From: a virus
IMG/VR virus record: IMGVR_UViG_3300032288_005111
Coordinates: 1-30,473 of that record
Strand: one strand, 5' to 3'
Length of the DNA: 30,473 nt
The notes beneath the pieces were generated by a model. It saw only the letters and a list, made by a program, of their open reading frames with translations, had not been told where the DNA came from and did no database searches. Below are positions 151-27,218 of this stretch, piece by piece (position 1 is the first letter of the stretch; each line of letters opens with the position of its first letter). The position numbers and the translations under genes were made by a program.

Positions 151-981
151 ATGAAAAAAGTTTTATTAGTTGTTGGATTAACATTATTGTTAATACTAAT
201 CTGTGCTATTATGTTAAACGCTCAAGTTAGTAATTGGAGAAGTAATCCTCCACAACCACAAACAAAGGTGGAAACACCAAGAATAACACCGAGCGTTCCT
301 CAACGAAATGATGTAAGTAGATGGAGAAACGATCCACCTAGACAATCGCAACCAGATCCTCGTGGAAGGGTTAGAATTCAAAATTGGGGTAGGCCTAATC
401 AATTTGGGTATTATTGGGGAAACTGGGGTTGGTATCAACCATTTCCATATATCTGGTATGATGATCTTGGATGGAGACAAAGAAGTATAATACATGTATA
501 CGAGAATGGTAGAAGAGACACTATTAGAAAAGAATCACCTTACACTTCTTTTGGTGTTGGTCATACCAATAATAAGCAAGCATCTTTTTGGGGTGTGATA
601 GGAAGAAAGAAAGGTTATTTTATTTTAGATTATACAATGTCTTATGACGTTGATCAAAATCAATATTACCCATATGGTAGAATTGATTTGGTTGATTTTC
701 CACTTAGTAAGAATGACTTTATTAAACAAGGTACATTATACCTAGGTGGTGGTAAAAGATTTGGTAAATTAGGTGTTCACGGAATGATTGGGTTTGGTAA
801 TGAGAATATTAGATACCAAGGTAGAGATGCTCTTGGGGGTATATCATTCCCTAAATCAAACTCAAATTTTACAACATTTAAATTCGGTATAATAAGAGAC
901 ATTAAATTCATCACATTAAAACTAGAAAGAGACCCAATAAGAAATTTTAATCAAATATCGATTGGTCTGAATAACAAATAA
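151..981 (+). CDS. Exported protein with WRxxPP repeats and beta-rich C-terminus
   Basis: 276 residues, family not recognised. Residues 1-25 (KKVLL...LNAQ) form a signal peptide or single membrane anchor. Residues 26-75 are rich in Pro, Gln, Arg and contain two related units, NWRSNPPQPQ and RWRNDPPRQS, so a short duplication is visible. Residues 75-110 are rich in Trp, Tyr and Gly. From about 130 to the end the sequence alternates polar and hydrophobic residues with many glycines, as expected of a beta-sheet or small outer-membrane domain. The stop codon shares a base with the next ATG (TAATG at 979-983), implying translational coupling. The likely place of action is the periplasm or outer membrane of the infected cell. 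Function unknown. Confidence 0.75.
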   Translation: MKKVLLVVGLTLLLILICAIMLNAQVSNWRSNPPQPQTKVETPRITPSVPQRNDVSRWRNDPPRQSQPDPRGRVRIQNWGRPNQFGYYWGNWGWYQPFPYIWYDDLGWRQRSIIHVYENGRRDTIRKESPYTSFGVGHTNNKQASFWGVIGRKKGYFILDYTMSYDVDQNQYYPYGRIDLVDFPLSKNDFIKQGTLYLGGGKRFGKLGVHGMIGFGNENIRYQGRDALGGISFPKSNSNFTTFKFGIIRDIKFITLKLERDPIRNFNQISIGLNNK

Positions 982-2384
982 TGAAAAAATATATTATATT
1001 TTTATTAATATTTTGTTTCATTGGTTTTAAATCATCTGGTCAAATTTATACACAAACATTTATTGATAAATGTACTGGCGAAACAAAAATAGCAACGACA
1101 ACATATGTTAATGGCAATGCTGTTGTTTCTTTTTACAACCAAATAAAAACATTTACACCAATTCAGGTGCAAACTGGTCAATTACAAACTTGGCTACAAA
1201 CAACATACAATGAATATAGTACAAGGGCATGCCCGACCAGTCAAGTTGTTCAACAAACTGTAACTGCGGCGGTATCGCAAGCGGCATCACAAGCAGCGTC
1301 GGCTGCAGCAAGTTCAGCGGCGTCGGCTGCAGCAAGTAGTGCTGCAAGTTCTTCGGCTAGTTCAACAGCAAGTTCTTCCGCTAGTAGTGCGGCAAGTTCG
1401 TCATCTAGCGCCGCTTCTTCTACTGGATCATCGGCCGCTAGTTCATCATCAAGTCAAGGTAGTTCATCTGGATCGTCTAGTTCGTCATCAGAAAGTAAAT
1501 CAGAAGGTAGTTCATCTAGTTCATCTAGTTCATCTAAATCTGAATCTAAATCTGAAGAGTCAAAATCTGAATCTAAATCCGAAAGTAAGAGCGAAGAAAA
1601 GAAAGAAGAAACTAAATCTGAAGAAAAGAAAGAGGAGAGTAAGGAAGAGAAAAAAGAGGAAAGCAAGGAAGAAAAAAAAGAGGAGAAAAAGGAAGAAAAG
1701 AAAAAAGAAGAAAAGAAAAAACAACTTTCAACAAATCCAATGTTATTCGCGTCAGATTTAACTGGAGCGCAAGGTGCAGATAGAAAATATAACGTTGTTA
1801 TATCTTTGGGTATTAGTAAATCATCAATGGCTGGAGATGAGAGTTTTAGTGGGACGGCATTAATTTGGAGTAATCTAAGACAGTTTGCTTTTAGTGGTGG
1901 TTATACTAAAATGAAATTTAAAAACGGTTCTTTAAATAGCATACATTCTTATTCCGCAACAGCGGCGTATCTTGATGGTAATTTTATGGGATTACTTGGT
2001 TACACCTGTATTAAACCAAATCCAAAATTTGGTACATATGGGTATAATATTGGTATGGTAAACCTAATGACTAAAAGCGTAGTTCAGAAATATGATTATA
2101 GTTTAATCACTTCGGCGGTTGTGTTTTGGACAAAGCCATATCAGTATTCAAAAAAAATAACATTATCACCACAGGTTTTTATAATGACTTCTCCGTTATC
2201 GTATAACACTTTTACCGGTAATACAATGGTTAATAGACATGCTGGGTTTTTATTGGGTACTTCTGTAGATTACAAAATAAGTAAAAGATTTGGTTTTGGT
2301 TTCAATTATAAATTTAGTGGATCAACAGCAAAAGAAACCCCAATTTTGCATAACTTTTTGATTGGTTCTAGGTTGATTTTGTAA
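981..2384 (+). CDS. Exported protein with Ser/Ala and Glu/Lys stalk
   Basis: 467 residues. A clear signal peptide (residues 1-21, ending FKSSGQ) is followed by a small domain with two Cys (FIDKCTGET and TRACPTS). Next is a long low-complexity stretch, roughly residues 95-250, that changes from Ala/Ser to Ser only, then Ser-Lys-Glu, then Glu-Lys. The last ~215 residues contain Gly- and aromatic-rich alternating strands (for example LGISKSSM, FAFSGGYTKM, FGFGFNYKFSG) ending in IGSRLIL, which look like a small beta-barrel. Coupled to the gene before it (TAATG). I infer a phage-encoded surface or outer-membrane protein with a flexible spacer. No family recognised. Alternative-frame ORFs across the repeats are shadows. 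Confidence 0.75.
   Translation: MKKYIIFLLIFCFIGFKSSGQIYTQTFIDKCTGETKIATTTYVNGNAVVSFYNQIKTFTPIQVQTGQLQTWLQTTYNEYSTRACPTSQVVQQTVTAAVSQAASQAASAAASSAASAAASSAASSSASSTASSSASSAASSSSSAASSTGSSAASSSSSQGSSSGSSSSSSESKSEGSSSSSSSSSKSESKSEESKSESKSESKSEEKKEETKSEEKKEESKEEKKEESKEEKKEEKKEEKKKEEKKKQLSTNPMLFASDLTGAQGADRKYNVVISLGISKSSMAGDESFSGTALIWSNLRQFAFSGGYTKMKFKNGSLNSIHSYSATAAYLDGNFMGLLGYTCIKPNPKFGTYGYNIGMVNLMTKSVVQKYDYSLITSAVVFWTKPYQYSKKITLSPQVFIMTSPLSYNTFTGNTMVNRHAGFLLGTSVDYKISKRFGFGFNYKFSGSTAKETPILHNFLIGSRLIL
1258..1725 (+). repeat. Low-complexity codon repeats within the exported protein gene
   Basis: Degenerate repeats of AGTTCATCT, GCAAGTAG and GAAGAAAAGAAA-type units encode the Ala/Ser, Ser and Glu/Lys tracts. 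The first part is richer in G and C than its surroundings. The units are not separated by unique spacers, so this is not a CRISPR array. Confidence 0.8.
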
Positions 2385-2395
2385 GAAAAATATGG

Positions 2396-2407
2396 TATAT
2401 TAATACC
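2396..2407 (+). promoter_or_regulatory. TATATTA-N5-ATG element and start-codon inverted repeat
   Basis: TATATTA (2396-2402) stands exactly five bases before the ATG at 2408. The same element with the same spacing precedes the genes starting at 13007 and 6667 on the minus strand. It also lies inside a perfect inverted repeat, ATGGTAT (2392-2398), ATTA, ATACCAT (2403-2409), that covers the start codon. It could be a phage promoter giving an almost leaderless mRNA, an operator, or a translation signal. The repeat is seen directly; the role is inferred. Confidence 0.4.
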
Positions 2408-3145
2408 ATGAATATTTTAGTAATCGGAGATACTTGTACCGATGTTTTTATTTATGGTACCTGTGATAGAATTTGTCCAGAGGGTCCTGTACCAATTTTT
2501 AAACCAATTAACAAGGTTGAAAATAAGGGTATGGCAGGAAATGTTTATCAGAATTTATTATCTTTGAACATTGACAATGTTGATATTATAACAAATCATG
2601 AAACAATAACTAAAACAAGATATGTTGAAGAAAAATCAAATCATCTAATTGTTAGGGTCGATGAGAACGATATTGTTGAAAACAGTTTTAACATACATAA
2701 TGTTGATTTTGAAAAATATGATGCGGTTGTTGTTGCTGATTACGATAAAGGTTTTTTAACTGTTAACGATCTAATGAACATATCTAGATCACACGATTTA
2801 ACATTCTTAGACACTAAGAAAATTTTGGGTAAATGGGCAGATAATTTCACATTTATTAAGATAAATGAATTAGAATGGACTAATTGTGAAAAAGCGGGAC
2901 TTGATTACTCTTATTGGAAAGAAAAACTAATAATCACAAAATCTAGTAAAGGGTGTTTATATAATGAATTTATTTATCCTGTTGAAAGTAATTTAGATGT
3001 TAGGGATATAAGCGGTGCTGGTGATACGTTTATGGCTGCATTTGCATGTTCATATGTAAAGACGTTAGATATGTCTGTTTCTTTAAGATTTGCAAATAAA
3101 TGCGCTAGTACTGTTATACAAAAAAGAGGAGTTAGTACTCTATGA
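2408..3145 (+). CDS. PfkB-family sugar kinase, HldE N-terminal-like
   Basis: 245 residues, PfkB/ribokinase fold, closest in pattern to the kinase half of HldE (heptose-7-phosphate kinase). Visible features: N-terminal ILVIGDTCTDVFIYG, the PEGPVP segment near residue 25, GMAGNV at about 38-43 (the family substrate loop, usually GGAANV), a central VVVADYDKG, and the anion-hole/catalytic-base motif DISGAGDTF near residue 200. It is shorter than the usual ~310 residues. The stop overlaps the next gene by 4 bp (ATGA), and that gene is the matching HldE C-terminal-like nucleotidyltransferase, so the two probably act in sequence to make an activated sugar. It leads a four-gene operon. The substrate cannot be fixed from sequence. 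Confidence 0.85.
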   Translation: MNILVIGDTCTDVFIYGTCDRICPEGPVPIFKPINKVENKGMAGNVYQNLLSLNIDNVDIITNHETITKTRYVEEKSNHLIVRVDENDIVENSFNIHNVDFEKYDAVVVADYDKGFLTVNDLMNISRSHDLTFLDTKKILGKWADNFTFIKINELEWTNCEKAGLDYSYWKEKLIITKSSKGCLYNEFIYPVESNLDVRDISGAGDTFMAAFACSYVKTLDMSVSLRFANKCASTVIQKRGVSTL

Positions 3146-3904: not shown

Positions 3905-4332
3905 AAGAAAGAAAATTTTTACCAACATTATCAGAGTTAATAGATAGATTATCTATTGTACAATTAAAAGAAGTTAAAATTCCTGAACATAAATCAGAAT
4001 ACGCACAAGAAATTTCTGATATAGTTCACGACATTCAATTAATAATGAATGAAAAAGATGTTGTTATAACAGCAGAATTATTAAGAGCAGTAATTGTTTG
4101 TGCACAAATGAACGCACATATTTGGTATAATGAAACCAATGTTAGAAGTGGTATTTCTGGCCCGAATATGCTAGCGCTAACTCACGGAATAAATGGTATT
4201 AGAAATACTGCAAAGAATAAAATACAAGAAGTTGTAGGTGGTAGGAGAGATTATAAAATTGATTGTATCGCTGCCGACTTTAAAGATTGGGAAGTTAGTT
4301 GGCCAAAGAGAGATGAAGAAATGGAAGGATAA
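3901..4332 (+). CDS. Unknown protein of the sugar operon
   Basis: 143 residues, mostly helical, not confidently recognised. It begins KERKFLPTLSELIDRLSIVQLKE and has a central NAHIWYNETNVRSG segment. The order of a helix ending N-x-x-x-W-x-x-E/N and a following Arg is faintly like the DUF4254 family, which I offer only as a lead. It overlaps the cupin gene by 4 bp and is the last gene before the terminator at 4335-4361, so it is cotranscribed with the kinase and nucleotidyltransferase and probably belongs to the same pathway. Confidence 0.65.
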   Translation: MKERKFLPTLSELIDRLSIVQLKEVKIPEHKSEYAQEISDIVHDIQLIMNEKDVVITAELLRAVIVCAQMNAHIWYNETNVRSGISGPNMLALTHGINGIRNTAKNKIQEVVGGRRDYKIDCIAADFKDWEVSWPKRDEEMEG

Positions 4333-4334
4333 AT

Positions 4335-4361
4335 AAAAAGGGACATTAAGTCCCTTTTTTT
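4335..4361. terminator. Bidirectional intrinsic terminator between sugar operons
   Basis: Inverted repeat AAAAAGGGAC (4335-4344), loop ATTAA, GTCCCTTTTTT (4350-4360). The A-tract and T-tract make it usable from both strands. It sits between the convergent plus-strand operon ending at 4332 and the minus-strand operon ending at 4360. Confidence 0.9.
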
Positions 4362-4908
4362 ATGCTTCATAATATAGTTCCGGATATTCGACAATAACAT
4401 GAATACCACCTTTTTCATAAGCATTTTTATAGTGGGATTCAATTGATGACCAGTTCTTTAAATCAATAAAATTAATATTAGGACACATCGATTTAAATTC
4501 TTCAATGTAATTACCTCTATGTTGGTGACCTGGATCTAATGGTTTATCTGAACCTTTACCTAAACGAATAATCATGTTAGGGTTCCAATTACCTCGACTC
4601 ATCAAACCAATCTTATCTACGTGATTAACTAATTGGTTTGTTGCACAAATTAAGAAATCCCAACGAGGGTAAAAGGTGATTACGAATTTTCCAACCATAG
4701 CCATACCTAACGACATCCCCATTTGAGATTCTTCCATTACAGGTAATTCGATGCATTTATCTTTAGGGACTTCTCCTATAGTTGTGCTCATAGGATTACC
4801 GTGCCAAAGCAATTGCTGACCTATAAAAACGGTGTTATCTTGTTGGCCAAGATAAGTCATCGACTTGGTTAATGCATCCTTGTATGGTGTGTATTGTGGT
4901 GCGCTCAT
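4360..4908 (-). CDS. ThDP-enzyme Pyr-domain protein, E1-beta-like
   Basis: 182 residues, matching the pyrimidine-binding (Pyr) domain of 2-oxoacid dehydrogenase E1-beta/transketolase. The segment IELPVMEESQMGMSLGMAMV (about residues 53-72) contains the conserved Glu (59 or 60) that activates the ThDP aminopyrimidine, followed by FVITFYPRWDF and ATNQLVNHVDKI as in E1-beta. Typical E1-beta proteins are about 325 residues; the C-terminal transketolase domain is absent. Its partner is the PP-domain protein at 10073-10708, the seventh gene of the same operon. Together they would form a minimal ThDP enzyme, perhaps transferring a two-carbon or acyl unit to a sugar. It is the last gene before the terminator. 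Confidence 0.8.
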   Translation of the reverse strand: MSAPQYTPYKDALTKSMTYLGQQDNTVFIGQQLLWHGNPMSTTIGEVPKDKCIELPVMEESQMGMSLGMAMVGKFVITFYPRWDFLICATNQLVNHVDKIGLMSRGNWNPNMIIRLGKGSDKPLDPGHQHRGNYIEEFKSMCPNINFIDLKNWSSIESHYKNAYEKGGIHVIVEYPELYYEA

Positions 4909-5693
4909 TATTGTTGTTCTACTTTTAATCTTTCAATTATATTATCTGCGACTATTTTATGTGCTTCAAGTGTCATGTGACTATCTGGCGGAGGGTTTTC
5001 TTTAAAATACTCCAAATCTGATTCGATACAAAAATTCGGAAATGCTTTCATAAGATCATCTATTGATAGATAACATTCATTTTGATAATTTATCCCGATT
5101 ATTTTTCCACTTAGAAATGGGTCGTCGTTTATTAAATCAAGATAGTCGTTGGTCCAAAAAAGTAATCTACATTTGATTTTTGAGTTCTCTAGTTCAACAA
5201 ATTTATTTTTTATTTTTTCAACGATTTGTTTTTTATGTAATAATCTAAATGTTGCGAAATCGTATTCATTTTCTTTTAACCAACCATAAAATGCTTCACT
5301 ATCTTTATCCTCTAAACCCATATACGTATTAATATGTAATGAATATTCTCTACCTTTATATGTAAAAGTAAATGGGCTCCTAAAGGATTGTGTGGTTTGA
5401 AAAATAAAATAACTAATCTCTTCTTTTTCAAAATCCTGAAAAGTATTATCTAAAAACTTAAATACATCATAATCACTACCGCCATTTTCTTGTCTAGTTA
5501 TTTCAAAGGTTTTAAAATAACTTGCAACGATTCTAGCGAATCTATTAGCATCCTTATATTCCCTTTGTGCTTTAGTAACATAATCTTGTTTAAATTGGTT
5601 TCTAGGCGGTCGTTTAATGTTAGGTAGGTTAGAATAGTAATATAACCCTTGGCCCCAAGTAAATGAATCACCACCAAAAATTAATCCGTTCAT
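4908..5693 (-). CDS. SGNH/GDSL-hydrolase-like protein
   Basis: 261 residues. Block I is GDSFTWGQGL with the candidate nucleophile Ser10, and the C-terminus has PPPDSHMTLEAHKIVADNI with Asp237/His239 in the place of the block V Asp-His pair. The middle is helical and divergent. SGNH proteins in glycan loci usually add or remove O-acyl groups; whether this one is an esterase or a transferase is not visible. No signal peptide, so it acts in the cytoplasm. It shares a base with the downstream Pyr-domain gene and overlaps the upstream SDR by 4 bp. A second SGNH-like gene is at 11243-12037. Confidence 0.7.
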   Translation of the reverse strand: MNGLIFGGDSFTWGQGLYYYSNLPNIKRPPRNQFKQDYVTKAQREYKDANRFARIVASYFKTFEITRQENGGSDYDVFKFLDNTFQDFEKEEISYFIFQTTQSFRSPFTFTYKGREYSLHINTYMGLEDKDSEAFYGWLKENEYDFATFRLLHKKQIVEKIKNKFVELENSKIKCRLLFWTNDYLDLINDDPFLSGKIIGINYQNECYLSIDDLMKAFPNFCIESDLEYFKENPPPDSHMTLEAHKIVADNIIERLKVEQQ

Positions 5694-6667
5694 ATATTAA
5701 ATTCTTTTTTGTTTTCTAAGTACCAATTGTAAGCATTCATTAAACCAACAGTAATTGGTGTTTTTGCTTCCCAACCTAATTTATTTTTAATCTTATTTGA
5801 ATCAATTTTTCTAGTTGGAATCATTGATGGTTTACCTTTAATAAATTCATTCGGCGCGTCATGGTCAGCAATTGCTTTCATCATTTCTAAAACTTCCAAG
5901 ACGGAAAAAACTTTATTAGATCCAACATTATAAACCTCAAACATTTCGGTTTCTTTCTCCATTATGATTTGAAGGGCTTCAACAAAATCTTCAATATATA
6001 GTAAATCCCTTAATTCACTACCATCACCCCAAATAGGTATTGGGTCCATTTTATCTGCTACTTTACGTATTGTTGCTGGTGTTACATGACATTTATTAAA
6101 ATCGTATTTATCATGTGAACCAAATAAATTTGCGGGTCTAACTACTGTGCATTTCATTGTCCTAGGTAGGTATTTCGCATATAGTTCGCACTGAACCTCA
6201 GCGTATCGCTTCATCCAACCAACTGGAAAGTAGACAGGGTATGGTTCATCAAACAAGAAATCGGTTTCAATAACAGGCACATCGCCTTTTGGTGGATACA
6301 CCGTATTAGATGATATGAATATATAATGTTTCACGTTATTTCTCCAAGCAGCGTCAATTAAAAAATTATTCATTGCAACATTTGGTGTGACGTGAGCCAG
6401 TGGATCAACGACAGTGTCGACAGCATTTGATGTGCTAGCGGCGCAATGAAATACAACATCGACATCTACTGTTGCTATTTTACAACCATCGTAAGTTTGT
6501 AAATCATGATAAGTGTAATTAACATTATCATGAACTTTTCTTACACCTCTTATATGAAGGTTTACCCTCAAATCAGTATAACCTTCTTTAATTAATCTTT
6601 CGGTTAAATTTTGTCCTACTAACCCAGAACCACCGGTAATTAGTATTCTACTATCTTTTTTAATCAT
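5690..6667 (-). CDS. Extended SDR, GDP-fucose-synthase-like, lacking catalytic Tyr
   Basis: 325 residues. Rossmann motif TGGSGLVG (11-18), FISSNTVYP near 118-125, VRPANLFG, WGDGSELRDLLYIEDFVEA and a C-terminal LGW. These match extended SDRs of the GDP-L-fucose synthase/NDP-sugar epimerase group. The YxxxK motif reads V149-G-W-M-K153: the Lys is present but the Tyr is Val, confirmed from the nucleotides near 6215-6235. A Tyr lies seven residues before the Lys. The protein may therefore use another acid/base or be a modified enzyme. TATATTA-N5-ATG precedes the start. A 39-bp gap separates it from the upstream SDR gene, so it may have its own promoter. Confidence 0.85.
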   Translation of the reverse strand: MIKKDSRILITGGSGLVGQNLTERLIKEGYTDLRVNLHIRGVRKVHDNVNYTYHDLQTYDGCKIATVDVDVVFHCAASTSNAVDTVVDPLAHVTPNVAMNNFLIDAAWRNNVKHYIFISSNTVYPPKGDVPVIETDFLFDEPYPVYFPVGWMKRYAEVQCELYAKYLPRTMKCTVVRPANLFGSHDKYDFNKCHVTPATIRKVADKMDPIPIWGDGSELRDLLYIEDFVEALQIIMEKETEMFEVYNVGSNKVFSVLEVLEMMKAIADHDAPNEFIKGKPSMIPTRKIDSNKIKNKLGWEAKTPITVGLMNAYNWYLENKKEFNI

Positions 6668-6679
6668 TGGTCTAATATA
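6668..6679 (-). promoter_or_regulatory. TATATTA-N5-ATG element
   Basis: On the minus strand TATATTA (6679-6673) is followed by GACCA and the ATG at 6667. Spacing is identical to the copies at 2396 and 13019. It lies in one of the few intergenic gaps inside the sugar operon. Confidence 0.35.
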
Positions 6680-6706
6680 ATCATTTTTGACTTAAAATAC
6701 AAGATA

Positions 6707-7639
6707 TTATTGGTTTTTTATATAGTGTTTGTAAACCATACTTATCGCATCAATAAATTTAGTTTTAGGTAATATACCGTATTTTTTCTGTTTATCAACA
6801 TCCATTAATCTTCTAAGGTCTCCGTTCGGTTTTGTGATGTCCCAATTAACTATTATGTCTTTACCGCTAATTTCAATTATTTGGCTAACCAGATCCTTTA
6901 TTGACACTTCGACACCTGATCCAAAATTAACGATGTCATTTATATCATTTTCAAATAAATGTACTATAGCGTCAGCCACGTCTCCTGCGTAAACAAAATC
7001 TCTTATCGGTGACCCATCGCCCCAAGCATCAATTTCACCATTAGATTCGTATATTTTTTTAACCATCGTAGCGATTACCGTGCCATTACCACTAAAATCA
7101 TCGTATTCACCGAATATATTCGCCGGTCTAATTATTGACCATTTGTTATAATCATATTGTACTTTGTATGCGTCTAACAGCATTTCTCCCATTCGTTTAG
7201 ACCATGATGGAAACCAGTCCGATTGTGATGGTAATGTATTCCAGACATCTCCCTCAACAAATTTTTCGGCGGGAGAATAAACACCAACAGAACTAACAAA
7301 AACAAGCCATATATTTTTTTTAGCGCACAAGTCAATCAATTCTGTGTTGATCTTAAATGATGGGTATAAAAAATCCACTGGTTTTGTTTTTGCTCTTATA
7401 GGTGAACCTTTTACACCAAAAGTATTCAAAACAACATCAGGGTTTGAAACATCAAAAACAGTTTTTAAATTTTGTTCATTTATTAAATTCGAGTTAATAA
7501 ACGTAAAATTTTCATGTTCAACACTGTTTACTGGGTCTTTGATGTCTACCCCGTAAACGGTATAACCCTTTTCCAAACATTTATTTACTAAATGTGTACC
7601 AACAAGACCGGAAGATCCGGTTATTAATATTCTTTTCAT
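6707..7639 (-). CDS. Extended SDR NDP-sugar epimerase/reductase-like, lacking catalytic Tyr
   Basis: 310 residues. NAD(P)-binding TGSSGLVGTHL (7-17), FVSSVGVYSP with the conserved Ser (about 116-117), IIRPANIFGEYDDF, WGDGSPIRDFVYAGDVADA, and LRRLMDVDKQKKYG near the end, all typical of GDP-fucose-synthase-like reductases. The YxxxK site reads P144-S-W-S-K148, so the catalytic Tyr is replaced by Pro while Lys is kept. This is the second SDR in the operon with that loss, and the two are only moderately alike, so it is not a fresh duplicate. Its start overlaps the glycosyltransferase-like gene by 4 bp. A role in nucleotide-sugar modification is inferred. Confidence 0.85.
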   Translation of the reverse strand: MKRILITGSSGLVGTHLVNKCLEKGYTVYGVDIKDPVNSVEHENFTFINSNLINEQNLKTVFDVSNPDVVLNTFGVKGSPIRAKTKPVDFLYPSFKINTELIDLCAKKNIWLVFVSSVGVYSPAEKFVEGDVWNTLPSQSDWFPSWSKRMGEMLLDAYKVQYDYNKWSIIRPANIFGEYDDFSGNGTVIATMVKKIYESNGEIDAWGDGSPIRDFVYAGDVADAIVHLFENDINDIVNFGSGVEVSIKDLVSQIIEISGKDIIVNWDITKPNGDLRRLMDVDKQKKYGILPKTKFIDAISMVYKHYIKNQ

Positions 7640-8832
7640 TGTGTTAATTCTTTTAATTCTAAAATCACTTCGTCGACCATTTTATTATATGAAAAAGTGA
7701 ATAGTGTATTTTTATTTTTTTCGATCTTTTCTTTATTTTTAATATACCAATCAATTAAATGCTTTTCACCTAAATTTTTAATTCTTTTAATTTCTTTAAA
7801 AACCGCATTTAATCTTTTATCATTATCTTTTATTTCGTCAAATGAGTAGTCGATTAAATCCTCATATAAATCAAAACCAAAATCTAATAATGTTTTATTA
7901 GCAAATGGATCACCAATTATTAAAAACGGTTGGCAGTTTGCTAATGGTTTAAAACTCTTCTCAGTTAAATTTAAACTATTTTCTTCAAATGTGGTTTCTA
8001 GGACAATATTAAAAATTGTACTAGAATAATGGGAAACGGTATTATATCTTAGGTAACTAAACTCATTATTCCCGTCTTTGGTAAAATCCCAATCTAAAAC
8101 ATTGTAACCCATTTTTAAAAAATCTTCAAAATAATTTGATAAACCATTTAATTCATCTTCTGTTGAATTATAAAATCTTCGATGTTCGTCTTTTATTAAC
8201 GTGGAGAGTAAAGTGTCTTTAATTAAATCATTTTTAATTAGCCATAAAATTGTTTTTATTCGATGGTCTCTAGTGCTGTTTTTACTATAACATAAAAAAA
8301 AATTAGTTTTAGGTTCAGTTAAATATTCATCAGTAGTGCACACACCCATCTTGTTCTCATTATGTAAAAAAGGTGAATCTTTAACTTTGGAATAATCACT
8401 AGATAAGTAACCCAATAAAAATGGTTTATATATAATATTTAATTCGTGGCTATAGTTTAAACAAATTTTATTTATTGTAATAACAGTAATTTGTTCTTTA
8501 TTTAATGAAAATTTATTTTTTAGTTCTAGTAATTTCAATATAAATGAATATTGATAATGGCCTTCTTGAAAACTGGAAAAAACTAATCTAACATTTGGGT
8601 TTTCTTTTACGGTTTTAAAAACATTATTAAAATATTCAATATTATTATTTAACACATCAACCCTTAGTTCACAAGTTACACTGAAATTCCATATTATTGG
8701 TTCATAGTTATTTATCTCTAAGATTGGATTTTTCCAACCATATACCCAATCTAAACTACTTGGTGCACATATTTTTCTAAACCCACCATTAGGAACATTT
8801 TCAAAATCAGAATTTTCGTAATAAAATTTCAT
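7636..8832 (-). CDS. Glycosyltransferase-like protein, paralogue 1
   Basis: 398 residues. The recognisable part is C-terminal: VLETTFEENSLNLTEKSFKP with LTEK at 289-292, then a PFLIIGDP strand, a GFDLYEDLIDYSFDEI segment and a helical tail. The E...(V/L)TEK..KP arrangement resembles the nucleotide-sugar-binding end of family 10 (fucosyltransferase-like) GT-B enzymes and a family of phage proteins found in glycan clusters. An earlier RDHR segment (about 190-195) is shared with the neighbouring paralogue. No membrane segment. A role in attaching the sugar made by this operon is inferred from context. It touches the next gene (shared base at 8832). Confidence 0.5.
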   Translation of the reverse strand: MKFYYENSDFENVPNGGFRKICAPSSLDWVYGWKNPILEINNYEPIIWNFSVTCELRVDVLNNNIEYFNNVFKTVKENPNVRLVFSSFQEGHYQYSFILKLLELKNKFSLNKEQITVITINKICLNYSHELNIIYKPFLLGYLSSDYSKVKDSPFLHNENKMGVCTTDEYLTEPKTNFFLCYSKNSTRDHRIKTILWLIKNDLIKDTLLSTLIKDEHRRFYNSTEDELNGLSNYFEDFLKMGYNVLDWDFTKDGNNEFSYLRYNTVSHYSSTIFNIVLETTFEENSLNLTEKSFKPLANCQPFLIIGDPFANKTLLDFGFDLYEDLIDYSFDEIKDNDKRLNAVFKEIKRIKNLGEKHLIDWYIKNKEKIEKNKNTLFTFSYNKMVDEVILELKELTQ

Positions 8833-10088
8833 TAAATAAATTTATTTCTAAATGAATTACCAATTAATTTTGAGAAATAAAAATCCATGTTTTGGCTCAA
8901 ACCATAGTATTTGATGTAATCAGAATTATGTTTTAATTTTTTATGATTATCTTTATAATATTGTATTACTTCATTTTTTATTTTTGATAATCTATCTATT
9001 TCTTGATAAACCTTAATTAATCTTTGTTTATTATTTATTTCATTGTCATAATCATGATTAATTAGATCATCAAAAAGAAATAAATCGTGTCTTTTTCTTA
9101 CGTCATCAACATGTTTATAACTTGCTAAAAATAGTGGTATCTGATAATAAGCGAAAGGTTTGTATGTTTTTTCTGTTAAATGTGTTTCATTTATCTCAAA
9201 ATGTGACTCTGTGATAATGTTTATGTAACTATTTTTATGCGTAGTTATTTCAACATGGTTACATTCATATTTTTCCGGCGTTTCAAACCAGTCCTTTTCT
9301 TGTTCGAAATAACTTAATTTTTTATTTTTACATATAAATTCATAATCCTCAAGCATGTTTTCCCCGGTTAATCCATCAATAAAATTTTCTCTTTTAAACG
9401 TAACCAAATCCGGGTGTTCTTGATGACCATACGGTAGAGACCAGTCAATCAAATCTGGTATATCTAAATGTCCATTATTTTTTAATAAGGTTAATAATGC
9501 TATTCGATGTGTTTTTGGTCTTCTATTTTGACATAAAAAAAGAAATTTTTTATCATAATTAATTTCGGTACTGTTAATTCTTCTACAAATCAAACTGGTT
9601 AATTCTAATAGATAGTTGCACTTGAAAATATTAATATTTAAATCTAATTTTACTTTATATTCCTCTAATCTAGAGTTGTTATTAATTATGTAAAATTGTT
9701 CTTGATTTAAATTCTTTTTTATAATTAAATTTTTCAGTGTGTTTAATTGTTCTTCAACATCCATAAAACTTTCATGTTCGCTTAGAAAAATAACACGTAG
9801 TCCATTGTTTCTTATTTTCTCTTCTACATTTAATGGTATAGCCCAATCGTTTTCATTGTAGAAAAAAGATAAGGCGCATACATGTGATATTACATAATAA
9901 AAATATTCGTTTTCGTTTACATAATCTAACGTATGTTTTTTTATGTTATATAAATTATTATTATTCAACATTACCTCTGGTAATATTGAACATGTTCTCT
10001 GAAATTTATCGTTTACGTTATTGCAATTTGGTTTTGGAGTTTCTTCGTTCAACCAATCATCAAAAACTAAATTTAAAAAATTACCCAT
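8832..10088 (-). CDS. Glycosyltransferase-like protein, paralogue 2
   Basis: 418 residues, related to the gene at 7636-8832. Shared landmarks in order: FLFLCQNRRPKTHRIALLTL (compare FFLCYSKNSTRDHRIKTILW), ITESHFEINETHLTEKTYKP with LTEK at 304-307, a hydrophobic PLFLASY strand, and FDDLINHDYDNEINNKQRLI. The parallel order of motifs indicates a tandem duplication that has diverged strongly. As above, the LTEK motif suggests a GT-B-type transferase, without certainty. It overlaps the upstream E1-alpha-like gene by 16 bp. A protein acting at a different glycosidic linkage from its paralogue would be a reasonable hypothesis. Confidence 0.5.
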   Translation of the reverse strand: MGNFLNLVFDDWLNEETPKPNCNNVNDKFQRTCSILPEVMLNNNNLYNIKKHTLDYVNENEYFYYVISHVCALSFFYNENDWAIPLNVEEKIRNNGLRVIFLSEHESFMDVEEQLNTLKNLIIKKNLNQEQFYIINNNSRLEEYKVKLDLNINIFKCNYLLELTSLICRRINSTEINYDKKFLFLCQNRRPKTHRIALLTLLKNNGHLDIPDLIDWSLPYGHQEHPDLVTFKRENFIDGLTGENMLEDYEFICKNKKLSYFEQEKDWFETPEKYECNHVEITTHKNSYINIITESHFEINETHLTEKTYKPFAYYQIPLFLASYKHVDDVRKRHDLFLFDDLINHDYDNEINNKQRLIKVYQEIDRLSKIKNEVIQYYKDNHKKLKHNSDYIKYYGLSQNMDFYFSKLIGNSFRNKFI

Positions 10089-10708
10089 TTACCTGTTCCG
10101 TAGTGCGGCCACTCTTTTTTGTAATCGTACCAAATAACATCATTTGGTACTTCTCTTTTTATTCCTCCCCACGTTTCGATAGTTGGGGTGTTTGTTGAAA
10201 CTCCGTTATCTTCTATAATAAATCTTATAGGTAAATTATTGTTTCTTGCATATTTGTGCATTTCATAAAAACCACCAGTTTCAAATGCCATGTCGCCAAT
10301 AAAACACCAGACAGTGTCTGTTTTACCGTCTCTTTTGTTCGCCAAAGCGACACCAGTTGCGATTGGTATAATTGCTCCAACAATAGCAGACGAGTAAAAT
10401 TTATCATCTTTAGAAACGATGGTTATTGATCTACCATTTAATATTTCTTCTTCCAACCAAACCGGACAAACGCCTTTAAGTAATGCGTGATAATGTGATC
10501 TCCATGTTGAAAATACCCAATCGGATGTTTTTATTCTTTTAAAAATTTCAATTAAGTTTGTTTCATTACCGCCACTTAGATGTATTGGTCCTCTAACTTT
10601 ACCATTTTCCCAATGACCTGCGATTAGTTTTTCAAATGCAATTAAATCGTCTTCGGTTTGTTCGATTTCTCTAACAATTGGTAAATTATCTTCTAAATTT
10701 TTTATCAT
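10073..10708 (-). CDS. ThDP-enzyme PP-domain protein, E1-alpha-like
   Basis: 211 residues, matching the PP domain of 2-oxoacid dehydrogenase E1-alpha. Visible: WRSHYHALLKGV (69-80, compare REHGHALARG of E1-alpha), VGAIIPIATGVALANK, and the Mg-ThDP motif beginning GDM at 138-140 (usually GDG) with FETGGFYEM, closing at E-D-N168 about 28 residues later. Standard E1-alpha proteins are 320-370 residues, so this is a minimal version. The complementary Pyr-domain protein is at 4360-4908 in the same operon, separated by five genes. The pair probably forms one active site. In a sugar operon a transketolase-like carbon transfer is a plausible role; no E2/E3 subunits are visible. Confidence 0.8.
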   Translation of the reverse strand: MIKNLEDNLPIVREIEQTEDDLIAFEKLIAGHWENGKVRGPIHLSGGNETNLIEIFKRIKTSDWVFSTWRSHYHALLKGVCPVWLEEEILNGRSITIVSKDDKFYSSAIVGAIIPIATGVALANKRDGKTDTVWCFIGDMAFETGGFYEMHKYARNNNLPIRFIIEDNGVSTNTPTIETWGGIKREVPNDVIWYDYKKEWPHYGTGKWVIF

Positions 10709-12038: not shown

Positions 12039-13007
12039 TTAAAAATTTTGTGCGTAACCTAAAGGAAATCCATTTCTAAATTCAGATGTCATTCTAGGAA
12101 TTAAAACCTGATATGTTTTCATTAGTTCTTTTATGCCGTCGTCTAACGACCACTTTGGTTCCCATCCAGTTTTTTCAATTTTTTCGTTCGATACGATATA
12201 ATCTCTTTTATCTGGATCTTCATAGAAATCCGAATAGGTAATAGCAAAATCTGGTATAAATTGTTTTATTTTTTCTAACAATTCTTGTTTTGATAAATTT
12301 GCGTCACTTAACCCGACATTGTATACATTACTATTCATTGCAGAATAATTCTCTAAAGAAAAAGAAAATACATTTGCAACATCTTGAATATGTATAAAAT
12401 TTCTTTTAAAGTTTTTCTCAAATACGGTTATGTATTTATCGGTCATTGCTTTGTACACAAACTCATTTACCAATAAATCTGTTCTCATTCTAGGTGACGA
12501 TCCGAACACTGTGGCTAACCTAAAACATACTGCATTAGTGTGTTCTAATAAAATTCTTTCTGATTCACATTTACTTTCGCCATAAACAGATATTGGATTT
12601 AATGGTGATTCTTCGGTGCAAAATTTATCATCTTTACCAATACCATACCCACTATTTGTGTTTGGGTATAATATCATTTGTTCTTTAGATATGATATTAA
12701 GTATATTTTTAATTTGAGTATGGTTAACTTCCCAGGATAATTTTGGGTCTGCTTTACATGCTGGGAATCCAACAATTGCTGCTAACGGAATTATAACATC
12801 ATGTAACTCAACTTGTTGTTTTAATAAATTTTCATTTCTAACGTCACCATAGATAAAGTTATATTTTGGATTATAGGTGAATTGAAGTGGGGATAATTGT
12901 TTAAATAACAAACTATCAATAACGGTTACACTGTGATCAAGATCTAGAAATTTTTTAGTGATTACAGAACCTAGGTATCCGGCACCGCCAGTAATAAGGA
13001 TTTTCAT
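12039..13007 (-). CDS. Extended SDR NDP-sugar 4-epimerase/dehydratase-like
   Basis: 322 residues from ATG 13007 (MKILITGGAGYLG); a longer frame to 13079 runs through the terminator and is rejected. The Rossmann glycine motif TGGAGYLG is at 6-13. The active site PNTNSGYG (115-122) and the intact Y142-G-E-S-K146 make this the only one of the operon's three SDRs with a full catalytic set. Later RLATVFG, RNFIHIQDVANVF, YNVG and GWEPKWSLDDGI are standard for the NDP-sugar epimerase family. It is the first gene of the ten-gene minus-strand operon and is preceded by TATATTA-N5-ATG. Exact substrate unknown. Confidence 0.85.
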   Translation of the reverse strand: MKILITGGAGYLGSVITKKFLDLDHSVTVIDSLLFKQLSPLQFTYNPKYNFIYGDVRNENLLKQQVELHDVIIPLAAIVGFPACKADPKLSWEVNHTQIKNILNIISKEQMILYPNTNSGYGIGKDDKFCTEESPLNPISVYGESKCESERILLEHTNAVCFRLATVFGSSPRMRTDLLVNEFVYKAMTDKYITVFEKNFKRNFIHIQDVANVFSFSLENYSAMNSNVYNVGLSDANLSKQELLEKIKQFIPDFAITYSDFYEDPDKRDYIVSNEKIEKTGWEPKWSLDDGIKELMKTYQVLIPRMTSEFRNGFPLGYAQNF

Positions 13008-13019
13008 AGTATTAATATA
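13008..13019 (-). promoter_or_regulatory. TATATTA-N5-ATG element of the minus sugar operon
   Basis: Reading the minus strand, TATATTA (13019-13013) then ATACT then ATG (13007). The 15 bases TATATTAATACTATG match the plus-strand operon lead at 2396-2410 at 14 of 15 positions. I infer a shared promoter or start signal for the two sugar operons. Confidence 0.45.
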
Positions 13020-13038
13020 AGGAAAATTATGTAAAAAA

Positions 13039-13070
13039 CAAACCCCCGGGATAGAAATCAGGGGGTTTTT
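13039..13070. terminator. Intrinsic terminator between RNA-repair and sugar operons
   Basis: AACCCCC (13041-13047) pairs with GGGGGTT (13061-13067) across a 13-base loop. On the minus strand the stem is followed by TTTGTTTTTT, so it ends the operon that stops at 13122; the plus-strand side also has a T-rich tail. The minus-strand sugar operon begins just beyond it. Confidence 0.85.
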
Positions 13071-13121
13071 CTTTGGCAAGAAACTAAATGTATCTCTACA
13101 TTAATCTAATATACTTAAAAT

Positions 13122-13460
13122 TTATTTCTTTTCAAAGGCCTCATATAAAATTTTAATTTCAGCACATCTTTCATATTCCTCTAATTCTTCATAATACGGT
13201 AATATCTGCTCCATGAGAATATCATATTCATCTTTTTTAAATATGAATTCGGTATCCCATGATAGCGGACCAATGTCAGTAGACACTAATAATGTTAAAC
13301 TGCGTTTTCTACTGTTTTTTAACTCATTATAGATTTGTAAAACACCTTCATAAATCTGACCTTTATTTGTGTCGTAAAGTTGTTTAAAATCCCGATATTT
13401 CTTTTTTTCGATCTGTACCGTAATAAATGGTACTTTTCCGCTATTTCGTGTCCTTTTCAT
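13122..13460 (-). CDS. Unknown 112-aa protein after RNA ligase
   Basis: 112 residues, family not recognised. A basic N-terminus (KRTRNSGKVP) is followed by a strand, VPFITVQIEKKKYRDF, then a helix, then SLTLLVSTDIGPLSWDTEF and an acidic helical end (YYEELEEYERCAEIKILYEAF). Predicted soluble alpha/beta protein. The start overlaps the RNA ligase gene by 20 bp and the terminator follows, so it is the last gene of the RNA-repair operon. Function unknown; proximity suggests but does not prove a link to RNA repair. Confidence 0.7.
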   Translation of the reverse strand: MKRTRNSGKVPFITVQIEKKKYRDFKQLYDTNKGQIYEGVLQIYNELKNSRKRSLTLLVSTDIGPLSWDTEFIFKKDEYDILMEQILPYYEELEEYERCAEIKILYEAFEKK

Positions 13461-14478
13461 TTTTAAATGGCTTTGAGTATGATGGGTATATTGAATGCCA
13501 GATCATTTCATTTAATTGACTTGAGTATGAATCTAATCTTTTAAAAAGAAATGACCTATTTGGGTTGTCTTTAATTTTTTCCGCGAACTCTTTTTTGTTC
13601 ACTAATTCTTTAAACTCGTTTTCTATATCAACCTTAATTGTGTCAAATTGGTTTTGTAAATTTTGAGCGGTTCCTTTAACCCAATCATAAAATTCATCCG
13701 GAACTTTATCGAGAATTTCATCAAACGACTTACCTTCTTTTAAAATTTCCCAAATATCCCTATTGGAGATACCTGTTAAGATTTTATGTAGCCGTTTATA
13801 TTCATCCCCTTTAATTTTCATACGAAAACCATTTTTAAAACGGATTACGTAACCTTCTCTATCTTTACTGATTTCTTCTTGTAATAGTTCATATCCCTCG
13901 CCCCAAGTTTTATACGTTGTAACAACCTCAAAACCAGCGTCTTGCATCCAAAATAAACTACTATCTGGTATTTCATCACCAGTTTCAGTGTGGACACCAC
14001 CAAGAACAACTAATTTTTCTTCATCACCATAATCAACAACAATTCTATTTTCAGGGTAGATAATTTCAAACAAATATGTATTGTCTTTTCTTAAAGCACT
14101 GATATCATGTCTGTCGAGTATTTCTTTTCCTTTAATTGCTTGTGGCGATGTAAAAGATCCGCGTGTTGCTAATACCCACTCATTTTCATAATTAAAAAGA
14201 ATACCTAACGATCCATCCATTTTTTCATAAACAACATAATCCTCATTTGGTATGTCTTCTGGTTTATGTTCTTCGTAGTTAAAGAATTTCTTAAATGGTC
14301 TTGCAACAATGTCACCTTTTGAATTAGTAACCAATCCACGGCATTGTATAGTAATATCATCCCACAATCTATCGTATTGAACTTTTGGTGTATAATTCCA
14401 AATAGTTAAGTCGAAAGTTGGATGGGTTTGTTTATGTAACAAACCATCTCGGTGATATTTTTCTAAAATTTCTAACAT
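13441..14478 (-). CDS. T4 Rnl1-like RNA ligase
   Basis: 345 residues from ATG 14478 (MLEILEKYHRDG). An ATG at 14517 would add 13 residues but would overlap the preceding gene by 40 bp; the 14478 start forms TAATG with the stop of that gene and is preferred. Nucleotidyltransferase motifs are complete and in order: CRGLV (46-50), motif I E-K86-M-D-G-S with the AMP-accepting Lys86, RGSF, FEIIYP (motif IIIa), EGYVIRF (motif IV) and RMKIKGDEY (motif V). Such ligases seal broken tRNA or other RNA. The polynucleotide kinase two genes upstream supplies the 5' phosphate. T4 uses the same pair to undo host anticodon-nuclease cleavage, the likely role here. Confidence 0.9.
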   Translation of the reverse strand: MLEILEKYHRDGLLHKQTHPTFDLTIWNYTPKVQYDRLWDDITIQCRGLVTNSKGDIVARPFKKFFNYEEHKPEDIPNEDYVVYEKMDGSLGILFNYENEWVLATRGSFTSPQAIKGKEILDRHDISALRKDNTYLFEIIYPENRIVVDYGDEEKLVVLGGVHTETGDEIPDSSLFWMQDAGFEVVTTYKTWGEGYELLQEEISKDREGYVIRFKNGFRMKIKGDEYKRLHKILTGISNRDIWEILKEGKSFDEILDKVPDEFYDWVKGTAQNLQNQFDTIKVDIENEFKELVNKKEFAEKIKDNPNRSFLFKRLDSYSSQLNEMIWHSIYPSYSKPFKNEKDTK

Positions 14479-14708
14479 TATTTTATACTTCGGTATATGC
14501 CAGTAATAACTGACCATTTAAACCAAGTGAGGGACAAATATAAACCAACAAATCCATTTGCAAAAGATTTTGGCGAATGAGTTTCCAAATAAATGTCAAT
14601 TGTTGGTAATAAGTGAAAAGACCATTGATGTGTAAGTGTGTTAAAGTGCGGCTTCATAGAAGGTTTTGGTTTTACTGATTCGGTGAAAGAACTAATAAAT
14701 TTACTCAT
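14478..14708 (-). CDS. Small 76-aa protein between kinase and ligase
   Basis: 76 residues, not recognised. Contains SVKPKPSMKPHFN, a hydrophobic segment HQWSFHLLPTIDIYLE and a C-terminal FVGLYLSLTWFKWSVITG that could be a membrane-associated or buried helix. Its ATG follows the kinase TAA with no spacer, and its own TAA shares a base with the ligase ATG. That precise coupling on both sides makes it very likely a real gene. Whether it is a partner of the RNA-repair enzymes is unknown. Confidence 0.7.
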   Translation of the reverse strand: MSKFISSFTESVKPKPSMKPHFNTLTHQWSFHLLPTIDIYLETHSPKSFANGFVGLYLSLTWFKWSVITGIYRSIK

Positions 14709-15131
14709 TTAAAGTTTAATTTCAAACCTATTTTTCATTTGACTTACTTTATCTTCTGGGACTCCGTGAACGTTTAAACCATTGTGTCTATTTTCCACGA
14801 TGATGCTATATACTCTATAAGCATATCTTTCAGCCATTTCATAATACGCAGCCATTTCCCATTCTTGGGTGAACGTATTTGCAACAACAATCTTAAATGT
14901 TTCAAGTTTCATTTTTTCGGCACATCTAACCTGACATGAATTATGTGCTTCTTTTAATTTAGTGGCGTCAAACAGGTATTCACCTTTTTCGTTAACAAAA
15001 AAATCGTCAGCCGAAATAACATCAACGGACCCACCTGGTGTTGATAATATTACAGATGCTAGGGTGGTTTTCCCTGAACCGGGTAAACCTCTAAGTAATA
15101 TTAATTCTCCTTTATATGAAACTTCATCCAT
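14709..15131 (-). CDS. P-loop polynucleotide 5'-kinase (Pnk kinase-domain type)
   Basis: 140 residues. Walker A GLPGSGKTT at residues 15-23 after a strand ELILLR, then ISADDFF (about 39-45), where T4 Pnk has its general-acid Asp, then an EAHNSCQVRC helix and VVANTFTQEWEM as in Pnk/NEDD4BP2-type kinases. Only the kinase domain is present; the 3'-phosphatase domain of T4 Pnk is missing. It is followed without spacing by the 76-aa gene and then RNA ligase, forming an RNA-repair cassette. It could alternatively be a general small P-loop kinase, but the ligase context favours RNA 5'-end phosphorylation. Confidence 0.8.
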   Translation of the reverse strand: MDEVSYKGELILLRGLPGSGKTTLASVILSTPGGSVDVISADDFFVNEKGEYLFDATKLKEAHNSCQVRCAEKMKLETFKIVVANTFTQEWEMAAYYEMAERYAYRVYSIIVENRHNGLNVHGVPEDKVSQMKNRFEIKL

Positions 15132-25353: not shown

Positions 25354-25381
25354 AAAAGTGGTCAATTTAGACCACTTTTTT
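25354..25381 (+). terminator. Intrinsic terminator before terminase
   Basis: AAAAGTGGTC (25354-25363), loop AATTTA, GACCACTTTT (25370-25379) plus further T. A strong 10-bp stem. It ends the upstream virion transcripts, so terminase should have its own start signal in the 13 bases that remain. Confidence 0.85.
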
Positions 25382-25383
25382 CA

Positions 25384-25391
25384 TATTTATA
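25384..25391 (+). promoter_or_regulatory. TATTTATA element before terminase
   Basis: TATTTATA three bases before the terminase ATG (25395) and immediately after the terminator, the only space available for a start signal unless transcription reads through. The same octamer is before the portal gene. Confidence 0.35.
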
Positions 25392-25394
25392 TAT

Positions 25395-27170
25395 ATGAGT
25401 CAAAAAATTGAACAATTAAAAGAATATGCTCGTATTATAAAAGATACGCCATATGCTCTTAGGACATATCTACAAACGTTTGATAACACCCAAAAGAAAT
25501 TTGTACCATTAGAATTGTTTCCTGATCAAATACAACTGTTAAAAGATTACGAAACGTTTAATGAAAATATTACTAGAAAATATAGACAAGCGGGTGTTAC
25601 CACAGTAACTGCAGCATGGTTGTCAAAAAAATTACAATTAGCAAAACCAGATAACCCTGAAAGAGTTCTGATTATTGCAAACAAACGTGATACCGCAATT
25701 GAGATGGCTAATAAAGTTAGACATTTCTTAGAGCAGTGGCCAGAATGGTTAAATGTTGGGTTTTCTCCCGATAAAAACTCCGAGAGTAGATTTAGGTTAA
25801 ATAATGGTTCTGAAGTAAAAGCGGTTGCGACATCTGCGGATGCTCTTCGTGGTTTTACACCTACAGTACTTGTGTTTGATGAGGCCGCGTACATTGAAGC
25901 GGGTGAAGATTTTTGGGCTGCGTCAATGGCATCATTGTCAACGGGCGGTAAGATTATATTAATCTCAACACCAAATGGTTATGACCCAATTTATTGGGGT
26001 GTTTATGACCAAGCAATAAGGGGTATTAATGATTTTCATATTACCGATTTAAGATGGTTTAAAGATCCGCGTTATACAAAAGATTTAGTTTGGATAAAAG
26101 TTCCAGATATTGTTCATTACATGTTGAATAGAGAACAATATAATGACGATGATGTGGTATTAAAAGAATTTGATCTTTTAAAATATCAAGAATTAATGGA
26201 CCAAGGTTATCAACCATATTCAAGTTGGTTTGAGTCAATGTCTAAAAAATTCAAATATGATAAAAGAAAGATTGCTCAGGAATTGGAATGTGATTTCTTG
26301 GGTTCTGGTGATAGTGTTATTCCTTCTGAAACAATGGAAAGAATTGCTAAAACAATGATCAAACAACCTAAAGAAAAGTACATGCAAGGCACTTTATGGT
26401 TATGGAAAGAACCAGAACAAGGGCATAGGTATATAATGGGTGTCGACGTTAGTAGAGGGGACAGTGAGGATTTCTCATCAATAAACATTATTGATTTTGA
26501 TGCAAGAGAACAGGTTATGGAATACATTGGTAAAATACCTCCTGATGATTTAGCGGCTATAGCATATAAATGGGGAGTATTATATGACGCATTTATTGTT
26601 GTGGATATAACTGGTGGTATGGGGGTTGCGACATCCAGAAAACTACAAGAAATGAATTATAAAAATTTATTCATTGACGGTATTAACACAAAAAATATCT
26701 GGGAGTACAATGCTAAAGCAATGGAAAAAATCCCTGGAATTAATTTTAACAACAAAAGAACACAAATAGTAGCATGTTTTGAAGAACAATTAAGACATGA
26801 TTTTATAGTTAGATCCAATAGATTATTAAATGAATTGAATACGTTCGTTTATCTAAATGGTAAACCAAACCATATGAAAGGCGCTCATGATGACGCTATT
26901 ATGAGTATGGCTATCGCACTATATGCTGGAGATATCTCTTTTACACAACTAACAAGAAACGAAAACCAAGCAAAAGCAATGGTTGACTCTTGGATGTTAG
27001 CAGAGAGAACATACGATTCAGGTAAAGGATTTTATTCATACGGTACATCGTTTGACGGTGTTGGATCAATGCAAATGGATCAATCACAGTACGGTAATCA
27101 GCAAACGCAACCTTCAAAACAACTTTATCAAGAATATGGGTGGTTATTTGGTGGCAAAAAGGGTTCATAA
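25395..27170 (+). CDS. Terminase large subunit, T4 gp17-like
   Basis: 591 residues, close to the 610 of T4 gp17. It is the ATPase-nuclease that pumps DNA into the head. ATPase domain: Q-motif region LELFPDQ, Walker A position RKYRQAGVTT (61-70), Walker B VLVFDEAA (158-165) with catalytic Glu163, coupling motif LISTPNG (189-195). Nuclease domain: GVDVSRGD (D351), VVDITGG (D404), GAHDDAIMS (D499/D500), the RNase-H-type acidic triad. The Walker A lysine is Val68; Lys62 five residues before the Gly is a candidate substitute, as in lambda-type terminases. Followed by portal after 48 bases. Confidence 0.95.
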   Translation: MSQKIEQLKEYARIIKDTPYALRTYLQTFDNTQKKFVPLELFPDQIQLLKDYETFNENITRKYRQAGVTTVTAAWLSKKLQLAKPDNPERVLIIANKRDTAIEMANKVRHFLEQWPEWLNVGFSPDKNSESRFRLNNGSEVKAVATSADALRGFTPTVLVFDEAAYIEAGEDFWAASMASLSTGGKIILISTPNGYDPIYWGVYDQAIRGINDFHITDLRWFKDPRYTKDLVWIKVPDIVHYMLNREQYNDDDVVLKEFDLLKYQELMDQGYQPYSSWFESMSKKFKYDKRKIAQELECDFLGSGDSVIPSETMERIAKTMIKQPKEKYMQGTLWLWKEPEQGHRYIMGVDVSRGDSEDFSSINIIDFDAREQVMEYIGKIPPDDLAAIAYKWGVLYDAFIVVDITGGMGVATSRKLQEMNYKNLFIDGINTKNIWEYNAKAMEKIPGINFNNKRTQIVACFEEQLRHDFIVRSNRLLNELNTFVYLNGKPNHMKGAHDDAIMSMAIALYAGDISFTQLTRNENQAKAMVDSWMLAERTYDSGKGFYSYGTSFDGVGSMQMDQSQYGNQQTQPSKQLYQEYGWLFGGKKGS

Positions 27171-27205
27171 TCCAGTAAAATTTGTTTACATTAACAAAGG
27201 AAAAG

Positions 27206-27213
27206 TATTTATA
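27206..27213 (+). promoter_or_regulatory. TATTTATA element before portal gene
   Basis: TATTTATA five bases before the portal ATG (27219), in a 48-base gap after terminase. Third plus-strand virion gene with this octamer close upstream. Confidence 0.35.
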
Positions 27214-27218
27214 TCTAT

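Follow-up and report, generated by a model that had tools for sequence, protein, structure and literature searches.

Bacteroidota do without Shine-Dalgarno sites and seldom use leaderless mRNAs. Among phages, the lambda cI gene is read from a leaderless mRNA, and the late promoters of T4 have a TATAAATA-like box and no −35 element. The housekeeping (sigma-ABfr or sigma-A) promoter of Bacteroidota is described, in the parts of the reports available to us, as TTTG ... TAnnTTTG (PMC6847099, PMC7366714, PMC9723704). Its −7 box reads T-12 A-11 n n T-8 T-7 T-6 G-5, with many transcription starts 4–5 nt after it (PMC6847099), and is placed at −12 to −5 (PMC9723704); the −33 element is much less evident in F. 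johnsoniae (PMC6847099). According to the same partial sources, 5.5% of mRNAs are leaderless in F. psychrophilum (PMC9723704), ~3.7% of 5′ UTRs are shorter than 10 nt in B. thetaiotaomicron (PMC7366714), and 87% of predicted leaders exceed 10 nt in F. johnsoniae (PMC6847099). In Deinococcus-Thermus, a −10 motif at a fixed short distance from the start codon goes with leaderless mRNA (PMC12340547), and most middle and late transcripts of the Thermus phage phiYS40 are leaderless (PMC3594737), as far as the available text of these two papers goes.

The DNA analyzed here (the window) is a whole virus record, a contig of 30,473 bases. The terminase shares 29% identity with its counterparts in Flavobacterium phage immuto and Microcystis phage Mel-JY01, and the portal protein 35% and 38%. 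We assign the virus to the T4-like phages, and its host likely belongs to the Bacteroidota. Two sugar clusters encode a PfkB kinase, a cytidylyltransferase, a cupin, and epimerases (by Pfam), and the window also encodes an SPFH protein, a ClpA/B-like ATPase, and an Hsp20. A 467-aa protein at 981–2384 (+), for which a Pfam search gave no match, has long Ser/Ala and then Ser/Lys/Glu runs between its N-terminal part and its C-terminal domain. One close relative, contig IMGVR_UViG_3300034198_012353 (G001), was available for comparison, with aligned blocks 80%–90% identical to the window. Over 4302–10705 this relative is mostly unalignable, except for a 47-base piece, and carries other genes; the stretch appears to be a replaced sugar cassette flanked by conserved sequence.

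The original prediction concerned TATATTA exactly five bases before the ATG of three sugar genes, and all three occurrences were recovered, at 2396–2410 (+), 6679–6665 (−), and 13019–13005 (−), the sites of genes 2408 and 13007 having 14 of 15 bases in common as described. A fourth copy, which had been missed, lies at 13113–13099 (−) and has a TAG directly after its ATG. Dinucleotide shuffles of the window contain 0.32 copies on average and two at most, so that 0 of 100 reach four. We picked 40 gene starts out of the ORF list, a few of which are doubtful, and looked for TATATTA at spacings of 0–49; three starts have it at spacing 5, one has it at 19, and the remaining spacings are empty. The placement had been called unexpected by chance. 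That agrees with the result for TATATTA at this one spacing, where none of 2,000 shuffles of the 60-mers upstream of the 40 starts gives three, but over all heptamers and spacings of 0–29 the best combination reaches three or more in 47 of 500 shuffles. Because of this look-elsewhere rate, the three genes at a fixed spacing are, taken alone, only suggestive and not decisive. By itself, TATATTA-N5-ATG shows no enrichment over the reversed pattern in other contigs (6 versus 5 in 22 terminase-bearing contigs; 23 versus 29 in nine contigs including the one close relative), and with no such excess it was dropped as proof of generality. Among the sites listed from the viral collection, start-like ORFs of at least 60 codons follow 48 of 120 distinct sites with N5 and 28 of 114 with N8.

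The signal is carried by a two-part promoter, not by the heptamer. TTG or TTTG stands 19–20 nt upstream of TATATTA at all four sites, versus 2 of the 18 other TATATTA copies (Fisher p = 0.002; the background rate of TTG at N19/20 is 4.5%), and the full TTTG is present at two of the four, those of gene 13007 and the fourth site (Table 1). Compared with TAnnTTTG, TATATTAG (gene 6667 and the fourth site) has five of the six key bases and TATATTAA (genes 2408 and 13007) has four.

Table 1. Proposed promoter elements in the window and the genes and RNA that they would serve
Feature	Position	Strand	Remarks
TTG, proposed −33 element of gene 2408 promoter	2373..2375	+	N20 before box; kept in G001
TATATTA, proposed −7 box, 5 nt before ATG 2408	2396..2402	+	kept in G001
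PfkB-family sugar kinase gene, predicted leaderless mRNA, proposed +1 at 2408	2408..3145	+	PF00294
TTG, proposed −33 element of gene 6667 promoter	6700..6702	−	N20
TATATTA, proposed −7 box, 5 nt before ATG 6667	6673..6679	−	no counterpart in G001 (stretch unaligned)
NAD-dependent epimerase gene, predicted leaderless, proposed +1 at 6667	5690..6667	−	PF01370
TTTG, proposed −33 element of gene 13007 promoter	13039..13042	−	N19
TATATTA, proposed −7 box, 5 nt before ATG 13007	13013..13019	−	kept in G001
NAD-dependent epimerase gene that opens the long minus-strand sugar cluster, predicted leaderless, proposed +1 at 13007	12039..13007	−	PF01370
TTTG, proposed −33 element of fourth site	13133..13136	−	N19
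TATATTAG, proposed −7 box of fourth site (small-RNA promoter)	13106..13113	−	unchanged in G001
Predicted 69-nt small RNA with a 5′ hairpin starting at +1, TTTAGTTTCTTGCC in the middle, and a T-tailed terminator	13033..13101	−	fold, covariance model

We think it likely that these are host sigma-A promoters with leaderless starts for the three sugar genes. TATATTA would serve as the −7 box, with TTG/TTTG 19–20 nt upstream as its −33 element, for the host's housekeeping RNA polymerase, which would be of the Bacteroidota type (sigma-ABfr). As the box ends 5 nt before the ATG, transcription would begin at the A of the AUG. It is the published position of the −7 box (−12 to −5) that would put +1 on the A of the ATG at 2408, 6667, and 13007. 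The mRNAs of 2408 (a sugar kinase) and of 6667 and 13007 (epimerases) would then be leaderless and translated by recognition of a 5′-terminal AUG, and the fourth site would be the same promoter serving a small structured RNA, its ATG being incidental. The sigma factor and polymerase, the host phylum, the exact +1, and leaderless translation are what we infer. Like the Bacteroidota sigma-A promoter, the sites combine TTG/TTTG at N19–20 with a TAnnTT box whose −12 position places +1 at the ATG; unlike it, their boxes are TATATTAA or TATATTAG rather than TAnnTTTG, and the leaders in the available parts of the published work mostly exceed 10 nt. Spacing alone does not discriminate, as an E. coli-type sigma-70 promoter, TTGnnn-N17-TATATT, has the same spacing as TTG-N20-TATATT. 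The Deinococcus-Thermus motif likewise has a box at a fixed short distance from the start codon and leaderless mRNA, but that box is TANNNT and, from the portion of the report at hand, experimentally validated (PMC12340547), whereas the box in the window is predicted and is accompanied by a −33 element. phiYS40 likewise has phage genes read from leaderless mRNA, most of its middle and late transcripts according to the available text (PMC3594737), compared with three predicted genes in a 30-kb fragment here. A literature search gave no report of leaderless mRNA in Flavobacterium phages, judging by titles and the openings of abstracts.

The boxes and their spacing can be read directly from the DNA, as can their conservation in one relative and the distance classes in other phages. 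The sites of genes 2408 and 13007 and the fourth site are all retained in G001, to which the region around gene 6667 does not align. Of 35 nt of the fourth-site promoter, five are changed in G001, all outside TTTG and TATATTAG. The 45 nt preceding 2408 carry three changes, likewise all outside the boxes, and the 25 nt preceding 13007 carry a single change, a number not significantly low (p = 0.12). In distinct upstream regions of homologues (for several, the listed start of the match is not a genuine start codon), the site is found in 1 of 16 for gene 2408, 0 of 53 for gene 6667, and 1 of 13 for gene 13007, both positives being G001.

The two-part promoter is frequent in immuto (MW353175; 150 of 160 kb scanned), where TTG-N20-TANNTT precedes a start-like ATG 50 times, compared with 2.6 on average for eight wrong spacers. 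Of the 50, four have TATATT 5–7 nt from the ATG, three 8–17 nt, and 43 at least 18 nt; the mode is 30, and the four short sites start at annotated CDS starts (immuto26A_20, 33, 54, and 93, the last a glycosyltransferase). Immuto thus resembles the window in having TTG-N20-TATATT with a minority of sites 5–6 nt (after TATATT) before annotated starts, and differs in that its sites are mostly leadered (at least 18 nt from the box in 43 of 50) and many continue TATATTTAG. In five contigs picked for having at least one TTTG-N19/20-TATATTA-N5-ATG each, the sites at 5–7 nt number 3 of 19 (G032), 2 of 16 (G047), 6 of 29 (G040), 4 of 29 (G035), and 2 of 10 (G033), with control means of 6.8, 2.1, 2.8, 12.0, and 3.1, respectively. 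No short site at 5–7 nt was seen in Mel-JY01 (100 kb). The distance profile of four Bacteroidota-type genomes, with at least 190 matches versus at least 123 for the reversed pattern, was too noisy for use.

Within the window's own group (163 sources: L001–L080, L596–L675, the two halves of G001, and the window), starts clustered by protein have TATATTA in five clusters at spacing 5, two at spacing 4, and 1, 0, 0, 1, and 1 at spacings 6–10. This clustered version replaced an unclustered k-mer enrichment at starts, which was dominated by homologous genes. Several families keep the arrangement (MARVSFSQYSM in 3 of 9, the other six having it three bases further; the LNGLNNQVKW type in 4 of 5; MKKYALFIGRWQ in 2 of 2; MNIGYACINLSL in 2 of 3; MLKGEAHPMHKLT in 2 of 3), shares that are biased upwards, as the families were noticed among contigs fetched for having the pattern. 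The arrangement is not tied to sugar genes: what follows the fourth copy is a small RNA, and in other contigs it stands before other types of gene. Elsewhere in the window, TATATTTG, with an exact TAnnTTTG box, lies 20 nt upstream of the ATG at 17115 (+) and is a candidate leadered host-type promoter for the peptidase-like gene there.

A different element, TATTTATA-N3/4-ATG, occurs in the window at 25380–25397 and 27200–27221 (+), before the terminase and portal genes, and also in L001–L080. TATTTATA lies 2–6 nt before the ATG in 76 of 80 members of the terminase cluster and 80 of 82 of the portal cluster; it appears in five clusters overall, the other three having it in 6 of 9, 2 of 3, and 1 of 47 members. 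The terminase and portal upstream regions read by eye have no TTG element at the right distance. TATTTATA would seem the better candidate for a phage-specific late promoter than TATATTA, and the genes behind it are possibly leaderless as well. Our literature search found nothing on late promoters of Flavobacterium phages.

TATATTA had itself been proposed to be a phage-specific promoter that leaves a very short leader. A promoter whose leader is very short, in this case zero, is the inference that has the best support. The phage-specific part, which would make the sites T4-late-like and dependent on a phage sigma factor, appears unlikely. The phage is T4-like, and the short distance to the ATG resembles that of TATTTATA before the terminase and portal genes. 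However, TATATTA and TATTTATA differ; the TTG element is found at all four TATATTA sites, 19–20 nt upstream as in Bacteroidota sigma-A promoters, and at none of the terminase and portal upstream regions that were read; and the same geometry is common in a Flavobacterium phage. The sites also depart from the T4 type of late promoter, as TATATTA is not TATAAATA-like (TATTTATA fits better) and the T4 type has no −35 element, whereas a TTG element accompanies all four.

Coincidence in AT-rich DNA is quite improbable. In its favor, 47 of 500 shuffles reach three genes when all heptamers and spacings are allowed, and the bare pattern shows no enrichment in other contigs. Against it stand the −33 association, the confinement of the G001 changes to the spacers, and the spacing classes of the two-part promoter elsewhere. 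The original selection did not include the −33 element, the G001 relative, or the two-part spacing profiles, and these therefore support the observation independently of that selection.

The fourth site belongs to a neighborhood of its own. An RNA-repair-like cluster at 13122–15131 (−) includes an Rnl1-type RNA ligase (13441–14517; PF09511; first-listed phage match Tenacibaculum phage pT24, 40%) and a kinase-like AAA_33 protein (14709–15131). It also includes a 112-aa protein (13122–13460, −) with no Pfam or PHROG match and no tblastn match in the phage collection. Downstream of the ligase gene and gene 13122 lies a predicted RNA of 69–80 nt, with a 5′ hairpin bearing a UAGAG-like loop, a conserved middle, and a terminator, that is also predicted in L610, L611, L624, L625, L661, L666, L669, L674, L687, and L690. 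In the window its terminator overlaps the next promoter, the T tail (13033–13042, −) including the TTTG of the gene 13007 promoter. Folding of 68 nt gives −18.9 kcal/mol (z = −2.6), a value matched by 2 of 200 shuffles. The window and G001 differ at 1 of the 69 nt, compared with a block average of 13.7% (binomial p = 0.0005). In several relatives a matching RNA downstream of the RNA-ligase gene is preceded by TATATTA or a variant.

A covariance model built from ten relatives, with the window excluded, gives the window 43.0 bits (E = 2.2e-6). Among 79 ligase-bearing loci (L597–L675), 49 have a plus-strand match downstream of the ligase at E ≤ 0.02. Eight of these matches were among the model's seeds, and scores above 40 bits are reached by only 11. 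Matches of 25–36 bits also occur in three of the four bacterial genomes searched, so weak matches count only through synteny. In 37 aligned matches 20 of 21 pairs are changed on both sides, and the covariation score is 0.625; shuffles give 0.186, and sliding gives no more than 0.123. The 5′ hairpin by itself scores 0.413 versus 0.154, with 0 of 500 shuffles reaching it, in this alignment fitted to the covariance model; in a sequence-only alignment of the ten seeds the hairpin covariation is not significant (91 of 500 shuffles reach the score). The covariation evidence leans towards the predicted 5′ hairpin. When +1 is placed 12 nt from the box's first base, 13 of 14 copies have a predicted hairpin starting at RNA base 1 or 2, the exception being L690; ten of the 14 boxes are TATATTA and four are variants. 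Among these copies only those of the window and G001 (L596) have an ATG at +1, and the ATG is therefore taken to be incidental at the fourth site.

That TATATTA acts in the mRNA rather than the DNA, as a signal for translation initiation occupying −12 to −6 relative to the start codon, would account for the fixed distance to the ATG and recalls the tuning of initiation in Bacteroidota by bases near the start codon (PMC6847099, in the part available), but it is very improbable, as the fourth copy precedes an ATG-TAG and a terminated RNA, the box persists in relatives without an ATG at the small RNA, the other 37 of the 40 starts examined have no TATATTA at spacing 5, and an association with TTG 19–20 nt further up would not be expected.

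Rfam gave no match at the gathering score in the window or in four loci with the RNA (best sub-threshold match 30.9 bits, with 49 needed), and 50,697 phage records gave only pieces covering at most 37% of the small-RNA query. Nothing was found in the literature search on phage-encoded sRNA in Bacteroidetes. Leaderless phage mRNAs and a box adjoining the ORF are already known; the small RNA looks like a new family. Somewhat speculatively, and with a rather low probability in our estimation, one box with its +1 12 nt from its first base may drive leaderless mRNAs of sugar genes as well as a family of phage small RNAs not described before. The RNA would be inherited beside the RNA-repair genes (the Rnl1-type ligase and the kinase-like gene) and act in trans with them, for example as a decoy or guide against host anticodon nucleases, or as an mRNA regulator through its conserved unpaired middle.

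Phages that keep some of their genes in the leaderless position would offer a natural test of how Bacteroidota ribosomes initiate on a bare AUG. The two-part promoter offers a concrete annotation rule for uncultured phages of Bacteroidota, and the fourth site draws attention to a conserved small RNA, so far unnamed, close to RNA-repair genes.
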